A stretch of DNA of 23,389 nt. Source: a virus. The stretch is from positions 1 through 23,389 of the IMG/VR virus record IMGVR_UViG_3300044645_001769. One strand, given 5' to 3'. Position numbers and translations under genes: made by a program. The notes under the pieces were generated by a model that made no database searches, was not told the DNA's origin, and was given only the letters and a program-made list of their open reading frames with translations. Shown piece after piece: positions 4,460-12,992 of the stretch; positions within the stretch are counted from its first letter, which is position 1, and every line of letters starts with the position of its first letter.

Positions 4460-6880
4460 ATGAACGAGCAACTACAACGCGCGTACGACGCGCTACAGCA
4501 GGCAGACGCCGCTGGCAACGCCGAGGACGCTCAGAAGTTAGCGGACTTTATCCGCGAGCTTGAGGCTCAGGTGATGGTCCAGGAAGAGAAGAAGGCCGCG
4601 CCAACCGATGACAGCGGGCTTCAAAACCCAATGACCTACGGACTGGCAGGGGCCGCAGCAGGCAGACTGTTAGGCCCGGCGGTTGGCGCTGGTATAGACA
4701 CAGCCGCGCGCTCGATGATGAACCGAAAGCCACCAGCTCCTGGGGCAGCTCCCGCTGCTCCCGCTGCCGCAACAAGGATGGAGCCGAGCATAACACCGTC
4801 TCAACCAGCAAGACTTTCGGAGCCACCCTCGTTGCTTGGTCCGGGGGCTATAAAAGTTATTTCGCACAACGAACAGCAGGTTATTGGTCATCCTGCTGCA
4901 ATGAGCTTAGCGCGCAAACCGGAGCCTGGTTTTGAGGTGCGACCGGGTCGTTTGATAGCGACACCGGAGGGCGCCGATCTTTCAGTCGAGGCTCCACCAC
5001 CACAACCGCAAGCGCCACTGACACGGTCCGCGGCGCAGCTGTCCGCGCCACCAGCCGCTACACCACCGGCCACGCCACCAAAGCCTTCGCTGTTTAATAG
5101 GATGAGTCGCACCCTTGCGGAGCCGAAGAAGGTGCCCCTATACGTCGGCGGTGCCATGGCCGCGGGCCAGGGTCGGGACGCGTACGAGCAGATGCGCGAG
5201 GGCAACGTCGGAGAGGCCGCGCTGAGCGGAGCCGGGGCCTTGGGTGGCCTTGGTATGTTCTCCAGGATCAAGCCGGTTCGCGCGGCGGGCACGCTGCTTG
5301 GCGTTGGAACGCCACTCGCGCGCATGTACCGCAGCCTCACAAAGGAAGAGGACGAGCCGGAGCGCAAGGCCATGGGCGGGCTCGCGGGTTACGCCAAGGG
5401 GAAGATGGTCAAAGACCTGGCAGTTGGAAAGGCCCCGAAAGCGCTTGAAGACGTCATTAACCTTTTCAAAACAAATAAAGTTGTAAAACCTAGTGAAGCT
5501 TTTGGGGCCCATGAAGGTAAGACCGCGCATTTTACCCAATCAGATAGATTAAAAGCCATTGAGGGTGAATTAGGCGGCCATGAATTTTCTTCGCATCAAT
5601 TAACAAAACCTGAATACAGAGCTGCAAGAGCTGTGTGGGGTGTTGCATCTCCGCAAGAAGCAACTAAAATTATTAACAGAAATAAAAAAGTGCCAGAGGG
5701 GCAATCAATTTGGGCTCCTCTTATTGGCAGCCCAACTCAGCATCAAACAAACCCCCATGTGTTTGATCCTATGCTAGAGGAATTTTATCGACAAGCTCGT
5801 TTGGGAAAGTTGCCCCAAGAAACGGCTGATAAAATGATGGGCGCTTTGGCAAAACAACAATTTGGAAGCGGACCAAGAAAAGGGCAGTTGATGTTTCCAA
5901 ACGCTCCAGATATTAGAGATGAGGACGCCGTACGTGCGTTAGCGTCAACATTTGAAAATCGGGGTCCGTTAGCTGATATTTTGTTTGCAGCAAAAGGTGC
6001 TGGAAAAACAAAAGGCCAAATAATAGATTACGACAATATGCTTCGTAGCATGGCAGACCCAAGTTCTTTGGATGCTCCAACGCATTCTGTTGGTACCAGA
6101 CTTTTTACTTTGGACAATAATGTTACTTATAGACCGGACTTGCACTCTGCTTTTCCCCATATTTTAACTGGAGCAGATCAGGGAGTGTCGTTTCGCCCGA
6201 TACCAAAAGAATTGGCCCTAAAAGATTATATTGATACATACCGAGATTTTAAGGGACAAGAACCGGGGACATGGGCTTTTACTAGAAAACCGTTATCTGT
6301 AGATGTGACTGATAAATTTCTACGCAGATTAGAAGACGCCGGATACTCCAAAGGCGGATTGGCACACTTGGCAGGTGGGGGTAGTCCCAAAGATCAAGAT
6401 TTACTTAGCGCTTTTGAATTTGAAAGAAGAAAAGAAGGTCGGCCATCCAATTACAATCGCGGCACGCTCTCAAGGGGCAATAGCAGGGCGGACATAGACA
6501 TCGCCTCCGATAACGGCGGAAATGTCTACCAGAACTATTACAGGTACTCCGACCCTGAAGCCGCCCAACGAGACTATGAAAACCTTTTGGCAGAGTCTGA
6601 GATGAGGAATGATTTGTCCGGGTACGCCGAGGGTGGCAAGACACCCGCATGGCAGCGCGCAGAGGGGAAGAACCCAGAGGGTGGGCTGAACGCCAAGGGA
6701 CGAGCCTCCTACAAAGCAGAGACAGGCGGCACGTTGAAGCGCCCGCAGCCCGAGGGCGGGGCGAGGCGTGACTCCTTCTGCGCCCGAATGACGGGCATGA
6801 AGAAGAAGCTCACGTCCTCGAAGACCGCGAACGATCCAGACAGCCGGATCAACAAAGCGCTCCGTAAGTGGAAGTGCTAA
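4460..6880 (+). CDS. Large virion-associated protein with DUF6321-like C-terminus (806 aa)
   Basis: It starts 3 nt after the previous stop. The N-terminus AYDALQQADAAGNAEDAQKL is a helical motif frequent in phage internal virion proteins. A Pro/Ala-rich linker (~90-215) and a small Gly/Ala-rich segment follow. Residues ~334-657 are a distinct folded-looking domain (KTAHFTQSDR, IGSPTQHQTNPHVFDPMLEE, DYDNMLRSMADP, APTHSVGTRLFTL, PDLHSAFPHILTG) that I have seen as an unnamed domain in large phage proteins. The tail (~735-806) reads TPAWQRAEGKNPEGGLNAKG...SFCARMTGMKKKL...RINKALRKWKC, the DUF6321-type conserved phage motif. The AGGG/KGGL hinges separating modules are typical. The middle domain is encoded by AT-rich codons, unlike either flank. 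Function is unresolved; a virion location is inferred. Confidence 0.65.
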   Translation: MNEQLQRAYDALQQADAAGNAEDAQKLADFIRELEAQVMVQEEKKAAPTDDSGLQNPMTYGLAGAAAGRLLGPAVGAGIDTAARSMMNRKPPAPGAAPAAPAAATRMEPSITPSQPARLSEPPSLLGPGAIKVISHNEQQVIGHPAAMSLARKPEPGFEVRPGRLIATPEGADLSVEAPPPQPQAPLTRSAAQLSAPPAATPPATPPKPSLFNRMSRTLAEPKKVPLYVGGAMAAGQGRDAYEQMREGNVGEAALSGAGALGGLGMFSRIKPVRAAGTLLGVGTPLARMYRSLTKEEDEPERKAMGGLAGYAKGKMVKDLAVGKAPKALEDVINLFKTNKVVKPSEAFGAHEGKTAHFTQSDRLKAIEGELGGHEFSSHQLTKPEYRAARAVWGVASPQEATKIINRNKKVPEGQSIWAPLIGSPTQHQTNPHVFDPMLEEFYRQARLGKLPQETADKMMGALAKQQFGSGPRKGQLMFPNAPDIRDEDAVRALASTFENRGPLADILFAAKGAGKTKGQIIDYDNMLRSMADPSSLDAPTHSVGTRLFTLDNNVTYRPDLHSAFPHILTGADQGVSFRPIPKELALKDYIDTYRDFKGQEPGTWAFTRKPLSVDVTDKFLRRLEDAGYSKGGLAHLAGGGSPKDQDLLSAFEFERRKEGRPSNYNRGTLSRGNSRADIDIASDNGGNVYQNYYRYSDPEAAQRDYENLLAESEMRNDLSGYAEGGKTPAWQRAEGKNPEGGLNAKGRASYKAETGGTLKRPQPEGGARRDSFCARMTGMKKKLTSSKTANDPDSRINKALRKWKC
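5462..6430 (+). other. AT-rich domain-coding cassette within the 806-aa gene
   Basis: From about 5462 the sequence changes abruptly from GC-rich codons (gcg, ggc, cgc) to AT-rich codons (aaa, att, ttt, gaa) and returns to GC-rich around 6430. The boundaries coincide with the edges of the domain at residues ~334-657 and with the SKGGLAHLAGGG hinge, as expected for an acquired domain module. Confidence 0.6.
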
Positions 6881-6890
6881 TCACTTACGG
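6862..6890. terminator. Inverted repeat across two convergent stop codons
   Basis: ccgtaagtg (6862-6870) and cacttacgg (6882-6890) are perfect 9-bp inverted arms around an 11-nt loop. The loop region holds the plus-gene TAA (6878-6880) and part of the minus-gene stop (TGA read from 6883-6881). There is no U-run on either side, so it is not a canonical intrinsic terminator, but its position suggests bidirectional 3'-end formation or transcript protection. Confidence 0.5.
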
Positions 6891-8776
6891 TACCTAGCTC
6901 CGACCCACCCCTCCGCGGCGAGTGGGAAATCCGGAGCCCACTTAGGTGGCGTGGTCATGATGCTGACCACACGATCTAAGGCGGACTCGGCGTCTGCCTC
7001 CTCTGATAACAGGAGAATCTCGTCGTGAATAGTGTTGACCATTTCAAATCCGTTTTCCTCAAGCCGAAGCATGGCCTCGGTAAGCATATCTCTCGCAGTC
7101 GCCTGGACAGCCGACTGAAACATACTCGAACCAATAAGCTTGTTACGGCCCCACTTCCTGGTCAGGGTGTTCTGGTTGACCACGGTGACGCCGTCCCTCA
7201 TCTCGCCCCATGGGGTCAGCTGAGCCTCGACTTTGGGGCCCTGCCAGCAGATGATGCGCCCGCTCGGGAGCTTCATGAGAAGAGCTCCTTTCGTGAAATT
7301 AAAGAGAACGCGGCCTGACTTCACAGGCGTCTCCGGGACGCGCACCGCTGAGATCGCGGACCTCTCATAGTCGTACCACGCGGACTTCACCTTCTGGTAG
7401 GAGTCACGGTACGCGCGCACGGCCTGCTCGCTCTGCTCGGGCGTCATCTTCACACCCATCCCATCGGCGTACTCAATCAGCCCACGCGACCCCTGTCCGA
7501 ACATGCAACCCAGCACGGCGGACTTGGATACCTGGCGCATCTCAGAGGTGACCTCCTCGTATGGCACACGATAAAGACTACTCGACGCGAAGGTCTTGTA
7601 CTCGTCAAGACCCTGACGAAACATCTCTACCTTGTCATTTTGACCGGCTATCCATGACGCCACACGGTTCTCGATTGACGAGAAGTCAGCATCCAAGAAT
7701 GTACGGCCGGCGGGGGCTTTTATTACACTACGCACAAGGCTCGACAGCTCGTCCATAGTGCCACCGCGACCCTCCACCAGGACGCGCTCTATGGCCTCCA
7801 GGAGGCTCTCGTCCTTCAGGTGAGGCCTCGCTATGTTCTGCAGGTTAAGACCGCCCCTAGAGGCGAACCTGCCCGTGCTGGCGCCATGGTAGACCAGGGT
7901 GTTCCGTATCCTGCCACCGACCTGAACCTGTAGCATCTTCTCAAACTTCGCCACGCTCGTGAGCGACCCCTGACGTCTGAGCTCTAATACCCGACGGATT
8001 TTGTCGGGTATATTGTCGCGCTCTAAGAGCTTACGAACCGTCTCCGCTGTCAGGTCGTCCACCTTGATGTTCGCCTCCTCCAACCAGATCGCTATCTTGG
8101 CTGGCTGGTTCGCGGTGATCCCGCCCGTTAGCACGGTGATCTCCGAGGCTATCTTCGCCTTGTTAACCGCCACGGTGCCTATCGCGTTGTGTAGCTCGTT
8201 GACCTCCACCGGAACGCCGCGGTCGTTAATCTTCTGCGTCATCACCCACACTCGCTGCTCAGAGTTGGACATGTTCCGGCACCTCCTGAGCACCGCCATC
8301 TCGGTACGCACGTCCTGCTTGCAGTACTCGTACATCTGCGACAGCAGCACGGGGTCATAGCAGAACTCGCCGTTGCGCTGTGGCTTGGAGAGCTTCTGTA
8401 TCAGACGGTCGCCGGCGGCGTCCTTCTGCTGGGACAGGTTCAGCATCTGCGCGGCGTCCGCCAGGGACTGCGGCAGGTTGTTGGAGGCGGCCACGGCCAT
8501 GCTGTCCGTGAACTGCTCCCACTGGACTGGCACCTTGAGAACGTGGCGGAGGATGTTAACCTCGAACGCCGCGTTCCACGCTGAAAATTTGGTTGTCTCG
8601 TCAAGTAGCCAAGAGGGCGCGGGTGTCTCGCTTGGGATCCAGAGCTCGGGCTCCGCCCCACCGAACGAGTAGGCCATACAAATCACCTCGGTGCTCGGGT
8701 CCCTGGAGTACTTGTCCAGCCCAAGCTTGGGGAGGTCGGCCCGGCTACGGGTCTCAAAGTCAATTGACACGTTCAT
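6881..8776 (-). CDS. polA: Family A DNA polymerase with 3'-5' exonuclease
   Basis: Replicative phage polymerase of 631 aa. ATG at 8776 is chosen because AGGAGGT sits 5 nt upstream; a GTG 15 nt earlier would place the ribosome site inside the gene. Exonuclease motifs: D6-F-E8, WNAAFE (N68), and Y151CKQD155. Polymerase motif A is DADFSSIENR (catalytic D364), motif B is R414QVSK418SAVLGCMFGQG, and motif C is HDE (584-586). By aligning motif B with E. coli Pol I (K758...F762...Y766), position 762 is Leu (L422) and 766 is Phe (F426). No 5'-3' exonuclease domain is present, as usual for phage enzymes. It is last in the minus-strand operon and convergent with the virion genes. Confidence 0.97.
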   Translation of the reverse strand: MNVSIDFETRSRADLPKLGLDKYSRDPSTEVICMAYSFGGAEPELWIPSETPAPSWLLDETTKFSAWNAAFEVNILRHVLKVPVQWEQFTDSMAVAASNNLPQSLADAAQMLNLSQQKDAAGDRLIQKLSKPQRNGEFCYDPVLLSQMYEYCKQDVRTEMAVLRRCRNMSNSEQRVWVMTQKINDRGVPVEVNELHNAIGTVAVNKAKIASEITVLTGGITANQPAKIAIWLEEANIKVDDLTAETVRKLLERDNIPDKIRRVLELRRQGSLTSVAKFEKMLQVQVGGRIRNTLVYHGASTGRFASRGGLNLQNIARPHLKDESLLEAIERVLVEGRGGTMDELSSLVRSVIKAPAGRTFLDADFSSIENRVASWIAGQNDKVEMFRQGLDEYKTFASSSLYRVPYEEVTSEMRQVSKSAVLGCMFGQGSRGLIEYADGMGVKMTPEQSEQAVRAYRDSYQKVKSAWYDYERSAISAVRVPETPVKSGRVLFNFTKGALLMKLPSGRIICWQGPKVEAQLTPWGEMRDGVTVVNQNTLTRKWGRNKLIGSSMFQSAVQATARDMLTEAMLRLEENGFEMVNTIHDEILLLSEEADAESALDRVVSIMTTPPKWAPDFPLAAEGWVGARYRK

Positions 8777-8915
8777 CTTGTACCTCCTCACGGATTTTGA
8801 TACGGATCATGGCGATCGCGTGCTCGATGCCGTGTATGAACGGCGGAGGCGCGTTGTTTTTGAACGCGTTAGATTTTTCTTGGGTTAATAATGCGAGAAC
8901 TTCTTGGACTGTCAT
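8760..8915 (-). CDS. Small hypothetical protein (51 aa)
   Basis: It begins at ATG 8915, preceded by AGGAG with a 5-nt spacer (CGTTT); an in-frame extension upstream lacks such a site. The protein starts MTVQEVLALL, is amphipathic helical, and has a central PPPFIHGIEHAIAMI stretch. There is no recognisable domain. Its 3' end overlaps the DNA polymerase start by 17 nt and contains that gene's ribosome site, implying coupled translation. Real-gene status rests on the good ribosome site and operon position. Confidence 0.55.
   Translation of the reverse strand: MTVQEVLALLTQEKSNAFKNNAPPPFIHGIEHAIAMIRIKIREEVQDERVN
8782..8788 (-). promoter_or_regulatory. Ribosome binding site fixing the polymerase start
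   Basis: Read on the minus strand, AGGAGGT lies 5 nt before the ATG at 8776. It rules out the upstream in-frame GTG at 8791. It also lies within the 3' end of the preceding 51-aa gene, so the two genes overlap by 17 nt. Confidence 0.8.
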
Positions 8916-9336: not shown

Positions 9337-11211
9337 TTAGATCTCGCATGAGCCAGCGACGCACGCCAACATTTGTGCGCCCTCCACGTTATCTGTCTGC
9401 TCCTTAAACAACGTCCAGTCTATCTTCGGAACCCGAGCCTTCAGCTCATTGTACTGCTCCTCCGTGCACTCCTCGTACGGAGCCTGGCGGTACGTGCCAC
9501 CATCGTACGGCAAAAAGCTCACGCCGGAGATCTCGTCGAAGTGATCCCACACCCACGCGCCAACCGAGGGCCAATCCTTCTCCTCGACAGAGATTGTAAC
9601 AGACGGCTTGTGCTCACACCAGTGGCGCTGGTAGGCCAGCCAGAGCTCCAGGTGGGATATGGCCGAGACATCGTCCCGGACTAGCCCGGCCGGAGCTTTT
9701 TGAGGAAAGCTGAACACAACCGTCTGAGTCGGCTTGTAGACGCAGTCCTCTGCGGGTACACCCTGGCTGACGAGGAAAGCGCTAAGAGGATCCTTCTTAT
9801 CTCCTCTGACTCGGCGGATGTAATACCGGGAGTGTCTCGGGTGAATTCCAGAAGCTGAATCAACGAGCTGTGATACTGTTCCCGATGGCTTAACACAAGT
9901 AATAGCCGCGCTCTTAGCGACTCCGAGTGTATTAGCCCAGAGTTCATTGACTGCTCGTGAGTGCTCCCTGAGTTGTGCGAGGTTTCCTGCGAGAACTTCA
10001 TCATTTGTGCACATCTCCGTGTTGTCGTAGATACCGGTTAGCGACACTCCGAGCAGTCTCTCCTCCTCGGTGTTGCGCTGCCACAGCTTTCGCAGATACG
10101 GAAACTTTGTAAAGGTGGACTGAATTGTTCCCAGTATCGTCGCCACCTCAACCTTATCCTTAAGAGTCTCCAGCGTATCGTCATGTCTTACCACCACCTC
10201 GGTAAGGTTACAAAACTGGTAGGGTCGCAGAATAATTTCGGAGCAAGGATTTGTACCGAAATCAAAATTAGGATCGCGATGGCTATACTTGGCAACAGTT
10301 TTCTTAGCAGCTTCACGATTAAATATCCCACGCTCCCCAGAATGAGAATTGTAAAGACTAAGCCACTCTTCCATAAACTTACCCACAGTTGGGGTCTCAT
10401 TATAAACAGCAGAGTTGTTAGCAAGTGCCCGATGCGGCGCAGTTTCCCACCAAGGTCCAGATTTCGCATGTCGAATCCTTTCGTCGTCCAGGTCGGACAG
10501 AGAGATCATAGCCGAGCGGCGAACGCCACCCACGACCACAACCTCGCCAATCTTGCACATCAGATCATGGCACTCCAGGGTGTTTAGCTTTCGTCCTTTG
10601 GCGTGCTTGAAGGTGTTAACCGCGAACGAGAATAGGTCCACGAGGGGTCCTGGTCCGCTAGCTCTGCCGCCGAAGGTTTTGAGTCTGGCGCCGGCTGGTC
10701 GGATCTTGCTGACGTCCCACTTAGGTACTTCGCCAGCGTATAGATGCGCGATGAGGAGTCGGAGGGCTTTTGCCCATCCTTCTTTTGAGTCGTGGACAGC
10801 GATAACATGTTCGCTTTCAAAAAGCTGCTCCGGCACGTCGGGCAGCTGAGAAGTGTATTTAGATTCAACGCTGAACCCGACGCCAGTACCGCAGAGCAGG
10901 ATGAACATAGCTTCATCGAAAGACTTCGGGTCGTCGACGGGGAGATACGAACAATTGTAGATACAGGTGTTATCACGGTCTGCGCTCCTTCCGGCTGTCA
11001 TCATGGCGCGCATCGAGGGCATGACCTTCATGTCGTAGATTGCCTTGTAGATACGGTCCTTGAGTTCTGTGTTGTCTTTAATCGCCGGCGTGCGTGAGAA
11101 GACGTAGTCGACGTATCTCCATACGGTCTCGCTCCACTGCTCGCGGCGGCCCTTGTCGTCAATAAAACGCGCGTAACGGCTGGCTGCAATATATTCTTGG
11201 TATTGATCCAT
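9337..11211 (-). CDS. Adenosylcobalamin-dependent (class II) ribonucleotide reductase, monomeric
   Basis: Reduces ribonucleotides to deoxyribonucleotides with B12 as radical source, feeding phage DNA synthesis independently of oxygen. At 624 aa it is shorter than the Lactobacillus leichmannii RTPR (739 aa). Key residues fit the monomeric class II pattern: C87 in NNCSYLP-like context, the thiyl-radical Cys C323 with E325 in NPCSEI, C334 in FCNL (the same 11-residue spacing as C408/C419 of RTPR), and a C-terminal redox pair C617/C622 in ACVAGSCEI. VVGGVRRSAMISLSD and CVKPSGTVSQL are also conserved RNR blocks. It is preceded by an intrinsic terminator, so it may be transcribed separately or by readthrough. 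Whether it uses NDP or NTP is not decided here, though similarity in layout favours the triphosphate enzyme. Confidence 0.93.
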   Translation of the reverse strand: MDQYQEYIAASRYARFIDDKGRREQWSETVWRYVDYVFSRTPAIKDNTELKDRIYKAIYDMKVMPSMRAMMTAGRSADRDNTCIYNCSYLPVDDPKSFDEAMFILLCGTGVGFSVESKYTSQLPDVPEQLFESEHVIAVHDSKEGWAKALRLLIAHLYAGEVPKWDVSKIRPAGARLKTFGGRASGPGPLVDLFSFAVNTFKHAKGRKLNTLECHDLMCKIGEVVVVGGVRRSAMISLSDLDDERIRHAKSGPWWETAPHRALANNSAVYNETPTVGKFMEEWLSLYNSHSGERGIFNREAAKKTVAKYSHRDPNFDFGTNPCSEIILRPYQFCNLTEVVVRHDDTLETLKDKVEVATILGTIQSTFTKFPYLRKLWQRNTEEERLLGVSLTGIYDNTEMCTNDEVLAGNLAQLREHSRAVNELWANTLGVAKSAAITCVKPSGTVSQLVDSASGIHPRHSRYYIRRVRGDKKDPLSAFLVSQGVPAEDCVYKPTQTVVFSFPQKAPAGLVRDDVSAISHLELWLAYQRHWCEHKPSVTISVEEKDWPSVGAWVWDHFDEISGVSFLPYDGGTYRQAPYEECTEEQYNELKARVPKIDWTLFKEQTDNVEGAQMLACVAGSCEI

Positions 11212-12430: not shown

Positions 12431-12702
12431 TCTAGCACCAAGTCGTCAATGAACACGGGGGTGTTCTCGCCAACGTAAGCGCCCAGGATGTTGAACTGAT
12501 AGTGCTCCATCGCCTCGTCAGGGGTCATCCTGTCGTGCTTGATTAGAATCTCAATAATTCTGGGCTCGCTGTACGCGACGGCCATCATGCCGAGGGCGTT
12601 TGTTGCTACCCCTATGATGGCCTCGTCGAAGTACTCCTGGTCCATGAACAGCAGCTCCTCGCCGCCCACGTAGTTGTCTGCGATTTGTTGTCTCTTTTTC
12701 AA
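12427..12702 (-). CDS. Conserved hypothetical phage protein (72-91 aa)
   Basis: The longest reading starts at a TTG (12702) that overlaps the previous stop as TTGA. An alternative ATG at 12645, with GAGGAG 9 nt upstream, gives 72 aa beginning MDQEYFDEAI. I recognise the core DEAIIGVATNALG...MTPDEAMEHYQFNILGAYVG...TPVFIDD as a widespread small phage protein of unknown function. The 19 extra codons use the local GC-rich style, so the longer form is possible. It sits in a chain of overlapping genes between DUF2800 and DUF2815. Confidence 0.7.
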   Translation of the reverse strand: MKKRQQIADNYVGGEELLFMDQEYFDEAIIGVATNALGMMAVAYSEPRIIEILIKHDRMTPDEAMEHYQFNILGAYVGENTPVFIDDLVLE

Positions 12703-12992
12703 ATTCTTTCCAGCATCTTAAGTTGATAAATACACTCTGTGGTGGCTATAGAATAATTTTCGTAAGTTTTTTTCACTTGATAATTATCGGCTTCTTCAAG
12801 AAAAAAATCAAACTTTGTCTTAAGTTTTTCTAAAACTTTTATAGCTTCCTCAAGTTTTTTATCTTCACCGTACTCAAACAAATGCTCCCCAAATGAGGTA
12901 AGTTCTTCTTCTGTGAAATCTTCTGTTTTGTTTGTATTTTCAAAACCAAGGTAATCTTTTAGTGCGCTTGCTACTATTTGTTGCTTTTTCAT
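12699..12992 (-). CDS. AT-rich hypothetical protein (97 aa)
   Basis: ATG at 12992 overlaps the DUF2800 stop as ATGA. The product is highly charged and almost all helical, with Glu/Lys/Leu-rich heptad-like stretches (KKLEEAIKVLEKLKTKFDFF), and has no recognised domain. The gene is clearly AT-richer than both neighbours, using ttt, aaa and gaa codons heavily, a sign of recent acquisition. Function unknown. Confidence 0.65.
   Translation of the reverse strand: MKKQQIVASALKDYLGFENTNKTEDFTEEELTSFGEHLFEYGEDKKLEEAIKVLEKLKTKFDFFLEEADNYQVKKTYENYSIATTECIYQLKMLERI

Follow-up and report, generated by a model that had tools for sequence, protein, structure and literature searches.

The IMG/VR virus record IMGVR_UViG_3300044645_001769 was analysed over 23,389 nucleotides (the window; its phage is W). 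The open reading frame (ORF) at positions 4460-6880 encodes a protein of 806 amino acids (aa), and one of its domains, here called D, has almost certainly been exchanged: distantly related alleles of a single homologous domain take each other's place at one fixed slot. The composition shifts within the gene, homology to the nearest phage breaks, the trees of D and of other genes conflict, the same event recurs in other pairs of phages, and unrelated domains occupy the same slot. A first-pass annotation of the sequence had proposed horizontal exchange of a single domain; composition, homology breakpoints and tree incongruence all agree with this. It had also described the domain as swapped into the gene. 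The exchange stands, but it is better read as replacement of the slot content by a distant allele, or in other relatives by an unrelated domain, than as insertion of something foreign to the gene.

Composition and homology across the gene

The layout of the ORF is given below. Related loci have L-numbers, L025 being the closest phage; GC3 is the GC fraction at third codon positions, and DNA polymerase A is abbreviated polA.

4460-6880, + strand: 806-aa ORF with the exchanged domain; it closes the + strand (late) cluster and is convergent with polA
4460-5415, + strand: N-terminal module, common to L025 by homology comparison
5375-5404, + strand: hinge GGLAGYAKGK, aa 306-315; homology to L025 stops just past it
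5468-6439, + strand: AT-rich tract; GC3 0.29 versus 0.67 in the remaining ORF
5468-6355, + strand: exchanged domain D (profile envelope), ending in GG (6353-6358)
6440-6619, + strand: GC-rich spacer, aa 661-720, with no nucleotide homology to L025
6620-6640, + strand: hinge GYAEGGK, aa 721-727; homology to L025 restarts here
6665-6871, + strand: DUF6321 (PF19846), C-terminal module, aa 736-804 (E 1.3e-19, 71 bits, cut-off 28.5)

A two-state GC3 fit gives 5468-6439 as the maximum-likelihood AT-rich segment, with a log-likelihood ratio of 56.8; the maximum over 20 permutations is 10.6. GC3 is 0.64 in the N part, 0.29 in the tract and 0.73 in the C part (the C-terminal part of the slot protein). 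The tract comprises D, about 300 residues long, and about 28 further residues. The sharp change in codon style previously noted at both domain edges is thus confirmed by the fit, and the limits first given (5462-6430) are at most 10 bases off at either edge. Gly-rich hinges had been placed at the boundaries; they exist, but they do not lie exactly on the composition edges. GGLAGYAKGK is some 22-31 codons ahead of the left edge and GYAEGGK is about 60 codons past the right edge; the GG at aa 632-633, which is the conserved end of D, lies about 27 codons ahead of that edge.

L025, with a polA 97% identical to that of W, has the N module and D on a single ORF, and its DUF6321 closes the ORF that follows; in W all three form one polypeptide. 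Homology between the two phages ends at aa 319, shortly past the first hinge, and resumes on GYAEGGK (aa 721). Nucleotide identity of the N module is 89% over aa 1-111 and 75% over aa 185-319. The stretch in between (4793-5011, aa ~112-184) lacks nucleotide homology to L025, with homologous flanks; from the sequence it appears to be a second, smaller segment that was exchanged, with proline-rich linkers on both sides. The N- and C-terminal modules had been taken as native, which holds for the flanks of D but not for the whole N module.

A scan with polA found 33 relatives, 24 of which reach the end of polA; in 19 of the 24 the slot is readable. The D family occupies it in 11 of the 19, which rules out D as a domain foreign to the clade. 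Alleles and composition vary among these, so the same domain in the same composition is not found clade-wide.

Allele conflict and alternative cassettes

Two genes of the window serve as references for D:

6881-8791, - strand: polA, convergent neighbour and phylogenetic yardstick
9337-11211, - strand: ribonucleotide reductase (RNR), control gene in the exchange test

At the amino acid level, W and L025 are 84% identical in g1, 74% in g2, 87% in g3, 97% in polA, 91% in RNR and 95% in the exonuclease; D is 34% identical. The nearest relative of the W allele is found in L037 (74%), yet the polA proteins of these two phages share 54%. The same swap is seen in two other close pairs. L037 and L039 are 96-100% identical in g1-g3, 92% in polA and 98% in RNR, and just 51% in D; L014 and L017 are 91% identical in polA, 90% in RNR and 90% in the C part, and 31% in D. 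The D allele of L025 differs from that of W and is likewise AT-shifted. This suggests that the slot was filled by import twice, once in each of these nearly identical phages.

Identity in D is uncorrelated with identity in polA (rho -0.06; 91 pairs from 14 of the 15 loci carrying both genes, L088 being left out for its partial polA). The corresponding values are 0.84 for g2, 0.77 for the C part, 0.68 for both RNR and the exonuclease, and 0.52 for g1. In approximately unbiased (AU) tests, the D tree rejects the groupings W+L025 (p 4e-40), L037+L039 (p 2e-83) and L014+L017 (p 0.006; L014 is a long branch), and the polA tree rejects W+L037 (p 2e-6) and L006+L025 (p 1e-58); the pairs were chosen after the identities were known, so these p-values are descriptive.

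Two findings count against a simple exchange of D. Neither g3 (rho 0.30) nor the N part (-0.12, from 15 pairs only) keeps well in step with polA; exchange is therefore not confined to D, and the operon end is plastic as a whole, D most clearly. The exact donor of the W allele was not found. The L037 allele (compared as L001) differs from it at 62% of fourfold sites (0.62), and L037 is therefore not the direct donor.

Some relatives have a different domain in the slot. Non-D families lie between the N and DUF6321 parts in three of them:

L004:11798-13795, - strand: slot ORF with a non-D family
L016:13855-16152, - strand: slot ORF with a non-D family
L018:13882-16170, - strand: slot ORF with a non-D family

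L016 and L018 share the N part (aa 1-327, 86% nucleotide identity) and the C part (94%), and their centres are unrelated. Neither centre matches D and they are mutually unrelated by BLASTP, so the slot holds at least three unrelated domains in this clade. L004, whose polA is 92% identical to that of W, has the L016 centre at 66% aa identity.

Breakpoints fall within six residues of GG hinges in 7 of 20 cases (1.6 expected, p 0.0006), the motif having been picked after seeing the data and the boundaries of related pairs not being independent. For plain GG the count is 9 of 20 (4.1 expected, p 0.011). Both counts omit boundaries inside D and the L016b/L018b/L021b pairs. Slot ORFs L025:10912-12693 and L004:10909-11835 (- strand) contain repeated hinge motifs of the KADGGL or AEGGK type, and ORF ends in one phage match internal hinges in another; judging by these matches, the motifs could also be processing sites. 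A second slot ORF in L005 (11099-12541, - strand) has a weak Methyltransf_23 match (E 7e-4, below the cut-off) before DUF6321.

Two explanations would do without exchange. The window could be a chimeric metagenome assembly that fuses two phages within one gene; it is an IMG/VR virus record, and no second assembly was found that joins this allele to these flanks. However, the reading frame and the slot position are kept at both joins, the swap recurs in two other pairs, L025 independently carries another AT-shifted allele, and each of the L037/L039 alleles occurs in two IMG/VR assemblies with different numbers (L037 and L038; L039 and L040). A chimera is very improbable. The tract could instead be native, and AT-rich through codon or RNA constraint inside the domain. 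Several relatives within the D clade of W are indeed AT-rich. However, GC3 of D spans 0.20 to 0.84 across the family and its GC tracks that of the remaining locus (rho 0.80, n=54), so AT-richness is not a property of D, and for most of the family a GC-rich genome comes with a GC-rich D; the tree conflict would also be left unexplained. Native AT-richness is ruled out on these grounds, with a negligible chance of being correct. In AT shift the W allele ranks first among the 54 (z -3.2), followed by those of L025, L012 and L037. In the 40 members that have 80 or more upstream codons, the GC3 difference between D and its upstream region is largest on the negative side in W (-0.337; mean -0.003, standard deviation 0.107).

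The D family and its predicted fold

A first scan of IMG/VR found two relatives of D at 75% identity, and a profile-based scan found 61 loci. Searching all collected loci with the D profile gave 69 matches, which reduce to 54 distinct sequences; L001, L002, L003, L041, L043, L072 and L073 are copies of other loci and are omitted from the family counts. Alignment A3 holds 50 of the 54 (L068, L084, L076 and L094 are near-copies or truncated). The terminal Gly-Gly and Trp 393 are invariant in all 50, and further conserved residues lie near 359-363, 431 and 559-566.

By these searches, D appears to be a widespread domain family which is absent from Pfam, PHROGs and isolated phages. No convincing Pfam family (LPD families included) or PHROGs family matches it; a single PHROG match at E 0.0015 comes from one member only. 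No match was obtained by tblastn in 50,697 GenBank phage records or in 72,556 plasmids, and none turned up in bacterial genome contigs in one scan with one pattern. A sequence search of the PDB gave nothing useful, and neither did a search for the N module in viral contigs and phages. The DUF6321-bearing C part has matches in 537 phage records, for the most part from cyanophages and pelagiphages; DUF6321 is named in none of the papers searched.

Two D domains were modelled with AlphaFold2: that of W (11 alignment rows, predicted local distance difference test (pLDDT) 84, predicted template modelling score (pTM) 0.77) and that of the distant member L083 (50 rows, pLDDT 90, pTM 0.85). In VIA-align, YTH domains fill ranks 1-37 for the W model with Z of 5.2-6.9, the next row being at 2.8; many of the 37 are entries of the same few proteins. 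For the L083 model a YTH domain is first (Z 6.5, 131 of 154 residues), followed by ASCH (4.6 and 4.4) and THYN1 (4.2). We take 4r3i to be a YTH entry, 1zce and 2gbs to be EVE, 9kyl to be ASCH, and Lon-N to be PUA-like. The order of elements in D presumably fits that of YTH. Trp 393 lies on the second strand of the D model, at what we assume to be the place equivalent to a Trp of the YTH cage. D carries a helical insert of about 100 residues.

The models thus weakly favour a PUA-like fold, because two models of different sequences from one family have the same superfamily at the head of both lists, because the order of elements presumably fits, and because an invariant Trp is on the second strand. 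Several results weigh against this. The L083 model found just a single YTH entry, and every VIA-align Z is below 8, a range in which the tool warns of a merely common arrangement; for this reason the PUA-like reading is a lead. Foldseek gave no significant match for either model against the PDB (best E 0.57 and 1.2). No YTH, EVE, ASCH or PUA match in Pfam was found for the 50 members at E up to 10, in a search whose sensitivity for PUA-superfamily profiles is limited by the HMMER filters. On these models, the fold of D is probably of the PUA superfamily (YTH/EVE/ASCH-like), with an additional helical insert. That it reads a modified base, as suggested by analogy with such domains, is tentative and a good deal less likely.

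With the W model as query, 18 phage proteins match among the BFVD viral models at E<0.001, including PcfJ-like, lysozyme-domain and NAT-domain proteins. DsbA-like structures, which took top ranks in the first Foldseek search, were rejected (E over 0.5, TM-scores under 0.25). A CARD match to the L083 model (Z 4.6) was also discarded; it covers the helical insert only. EVE and ASCH families were sought in the window record without a match.

Protein context, possible role and other observations

Twelve distinct large D proteins from other contigs were scanned with Pfam (L045, scanned twice, counts once), and six of them pass the curated cut-off for domains of polyvalent proteins. PcfJ is found in L079, L062, L075 and L080, LPD23 in L075, L086 and L080, and ART-PolyVal in L059; the other six have none of the three over the cut-off. 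ART-PolyVal is also matched, more weakly, by L086, L082 and one slot ORF of L006. Upstream of the slot in the relative L021, the operon has genes for a tail fibre, a holin, an endolysin and two virion structural proteins. These contexts (late operon, LPD/ART/PcfJ domains) are those given for phage polyvalent proteins by Iyer et al. 2017 (PMC5512222). Polyvalent domains in relatives, together with a slot that closes the late operon, point to a virion-delivered, polyvalent-type protein. The W product is thus probably delivered cargo of this type, to judge from these contexts. The first-pass annotation had suggested an exposed or ejected virion protein; polyvalent-like late-operon cargo describes it better than an exposed virion protein does.

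Some observations speak against this assignment. Direct annotation of the late operon comes only from L021; g1 and g2 of the window itself have weak tail matches only and g3 has none, and no enzymatic domain was detected in the window protein. P22 portal, T7-type portal and SU10 capsid families were sought in eight relatives, but two of the three matched no control, which makes the search uninformative. A search of a Flavobacterium phage paper for virion evidence on the elemoC phage found no mention. In L098, a gene of the beta-1,4-glycosyltransferase family (1209-2252, + strand; phrog_13126, E 3e-103) shares a strand cluster with the L021 tail fibre gene.

The explanation that best fits the whole is that the late operon ends in a gene with a cassette slot, flanked by a native N-terminal module on one side and a DUF6321 tail on the other. 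Recombination would have put an AT-rich D allele from a distantly related phage, itself AT-rich, into the slot of W. The product would be polyvalent-type cargo which is made late, packaged, and delivered along with the DNA. Alleles would be swapped because D meets a variable host target. As a combination of exchange, delivered cargo and variable target, this is reasonably likely. More weakly, D might read a modified base in nucleic acid, in which case exchange would retune the delivered protein to host base modifications or restriction systems. The weakest step would be the identity of the target as a modified base, an analogy drawn from the part that EVE/YTH modules play in host-virus conflict (PMC7641849 and PMC11090510). 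The full proposal, that D is a phage-encoded, virion-delivered modified-base reader with a PUA/YTH-like domain and helical insert in polyvalent proteins of uncultured phages, its alleles traded at a dedicated slot to match the DNA or RNA modifications, or the modification-dependent restriction, of each new host, is accordingly speculative and on balance doubtful.

The exchange could also be real and D be a structural part, or an assembly or ejection adaptor co-adapted to its own virion partners, rather than a delivered effector. The gene lies among late genes, and neighbouring g3 and the N module are also out of step with polA. However, D is also found in ART-PolyVal, PcfJ and LPD23 proteins of quite different contigs. 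L037 and L039 have nearly the same g1-g3 and D alleles of 51% identity, so D need not match those neighbours. An adaptor is rather unlikely, and delivered cargo is preferred.

The shuffling of domains in phage proteins is already known, and so are polyvalent proteins. The W protein resembles the polyvalent proteins of phages and conjugative elements (PMC5512222) in being a large, multidomain late-gene product of variable architecture, and LPD23, ART-PolyVal and PcfJ are found in D proteins elsewhere; it differs in that it has no recognised effector domain of its own and D matches no Pfam model. The paper does not mention YTH, PUA, ASCH or EVE domains, and the sections consulted do not describe allelic exchange at one fixed slot. 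Recent exchange of fragments in otherwise conserved proteins has likewise been reported for phages (Smug et al. 2023, PMC10684548), and the W protein has the pattern of a shuffled domain: identity is high in parts and distant or absent in D. Neither 'polyvalent' nor 'ejection' appears as a word in that text.

In structure both D models come closest, weakly, to YTH, ASCH and EVE domains, as in the EVE/YTH/DCD readers of modified bases; Bell et al. 2020 (PMC7641849) propose a phage-protecting role for GNAT-EVE. D differs from these readers in its insert, in having no detectable sequence similarity to them, and in being fused to phage late-gene modules, not to nucleases. A YTH-like module also serves in host-virus conflict in the CoCoNuT/McrB type IV restriction systems (PMC11090510). 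Its carriers there are host defence proteins, whereas D is phage-encoded. The D family, the cassette slot and a PUA-like candidate in polyvalent-type proteins were not found in the literature, which was covered incompletely. Near-identical phages that differ most in the alleles of a late-operon cargo domain are a sharply bounded natural experiment, and selection on polyvalent-protein content thereby becomes testable; the D family also gives a testable hint of modified-base reading.

Two other regions of the window have unusual composition. A 97-aa ORF among the replication genes (12699-12992, - strand; GC 0.31, GC3 0.245) has no PHROG match and is a candidate AT-rich import. Within the RNR gene, two dips in GC3 to 0.34-0.42 (9860-10540, - strand) may indicate a within-gene mosaic.
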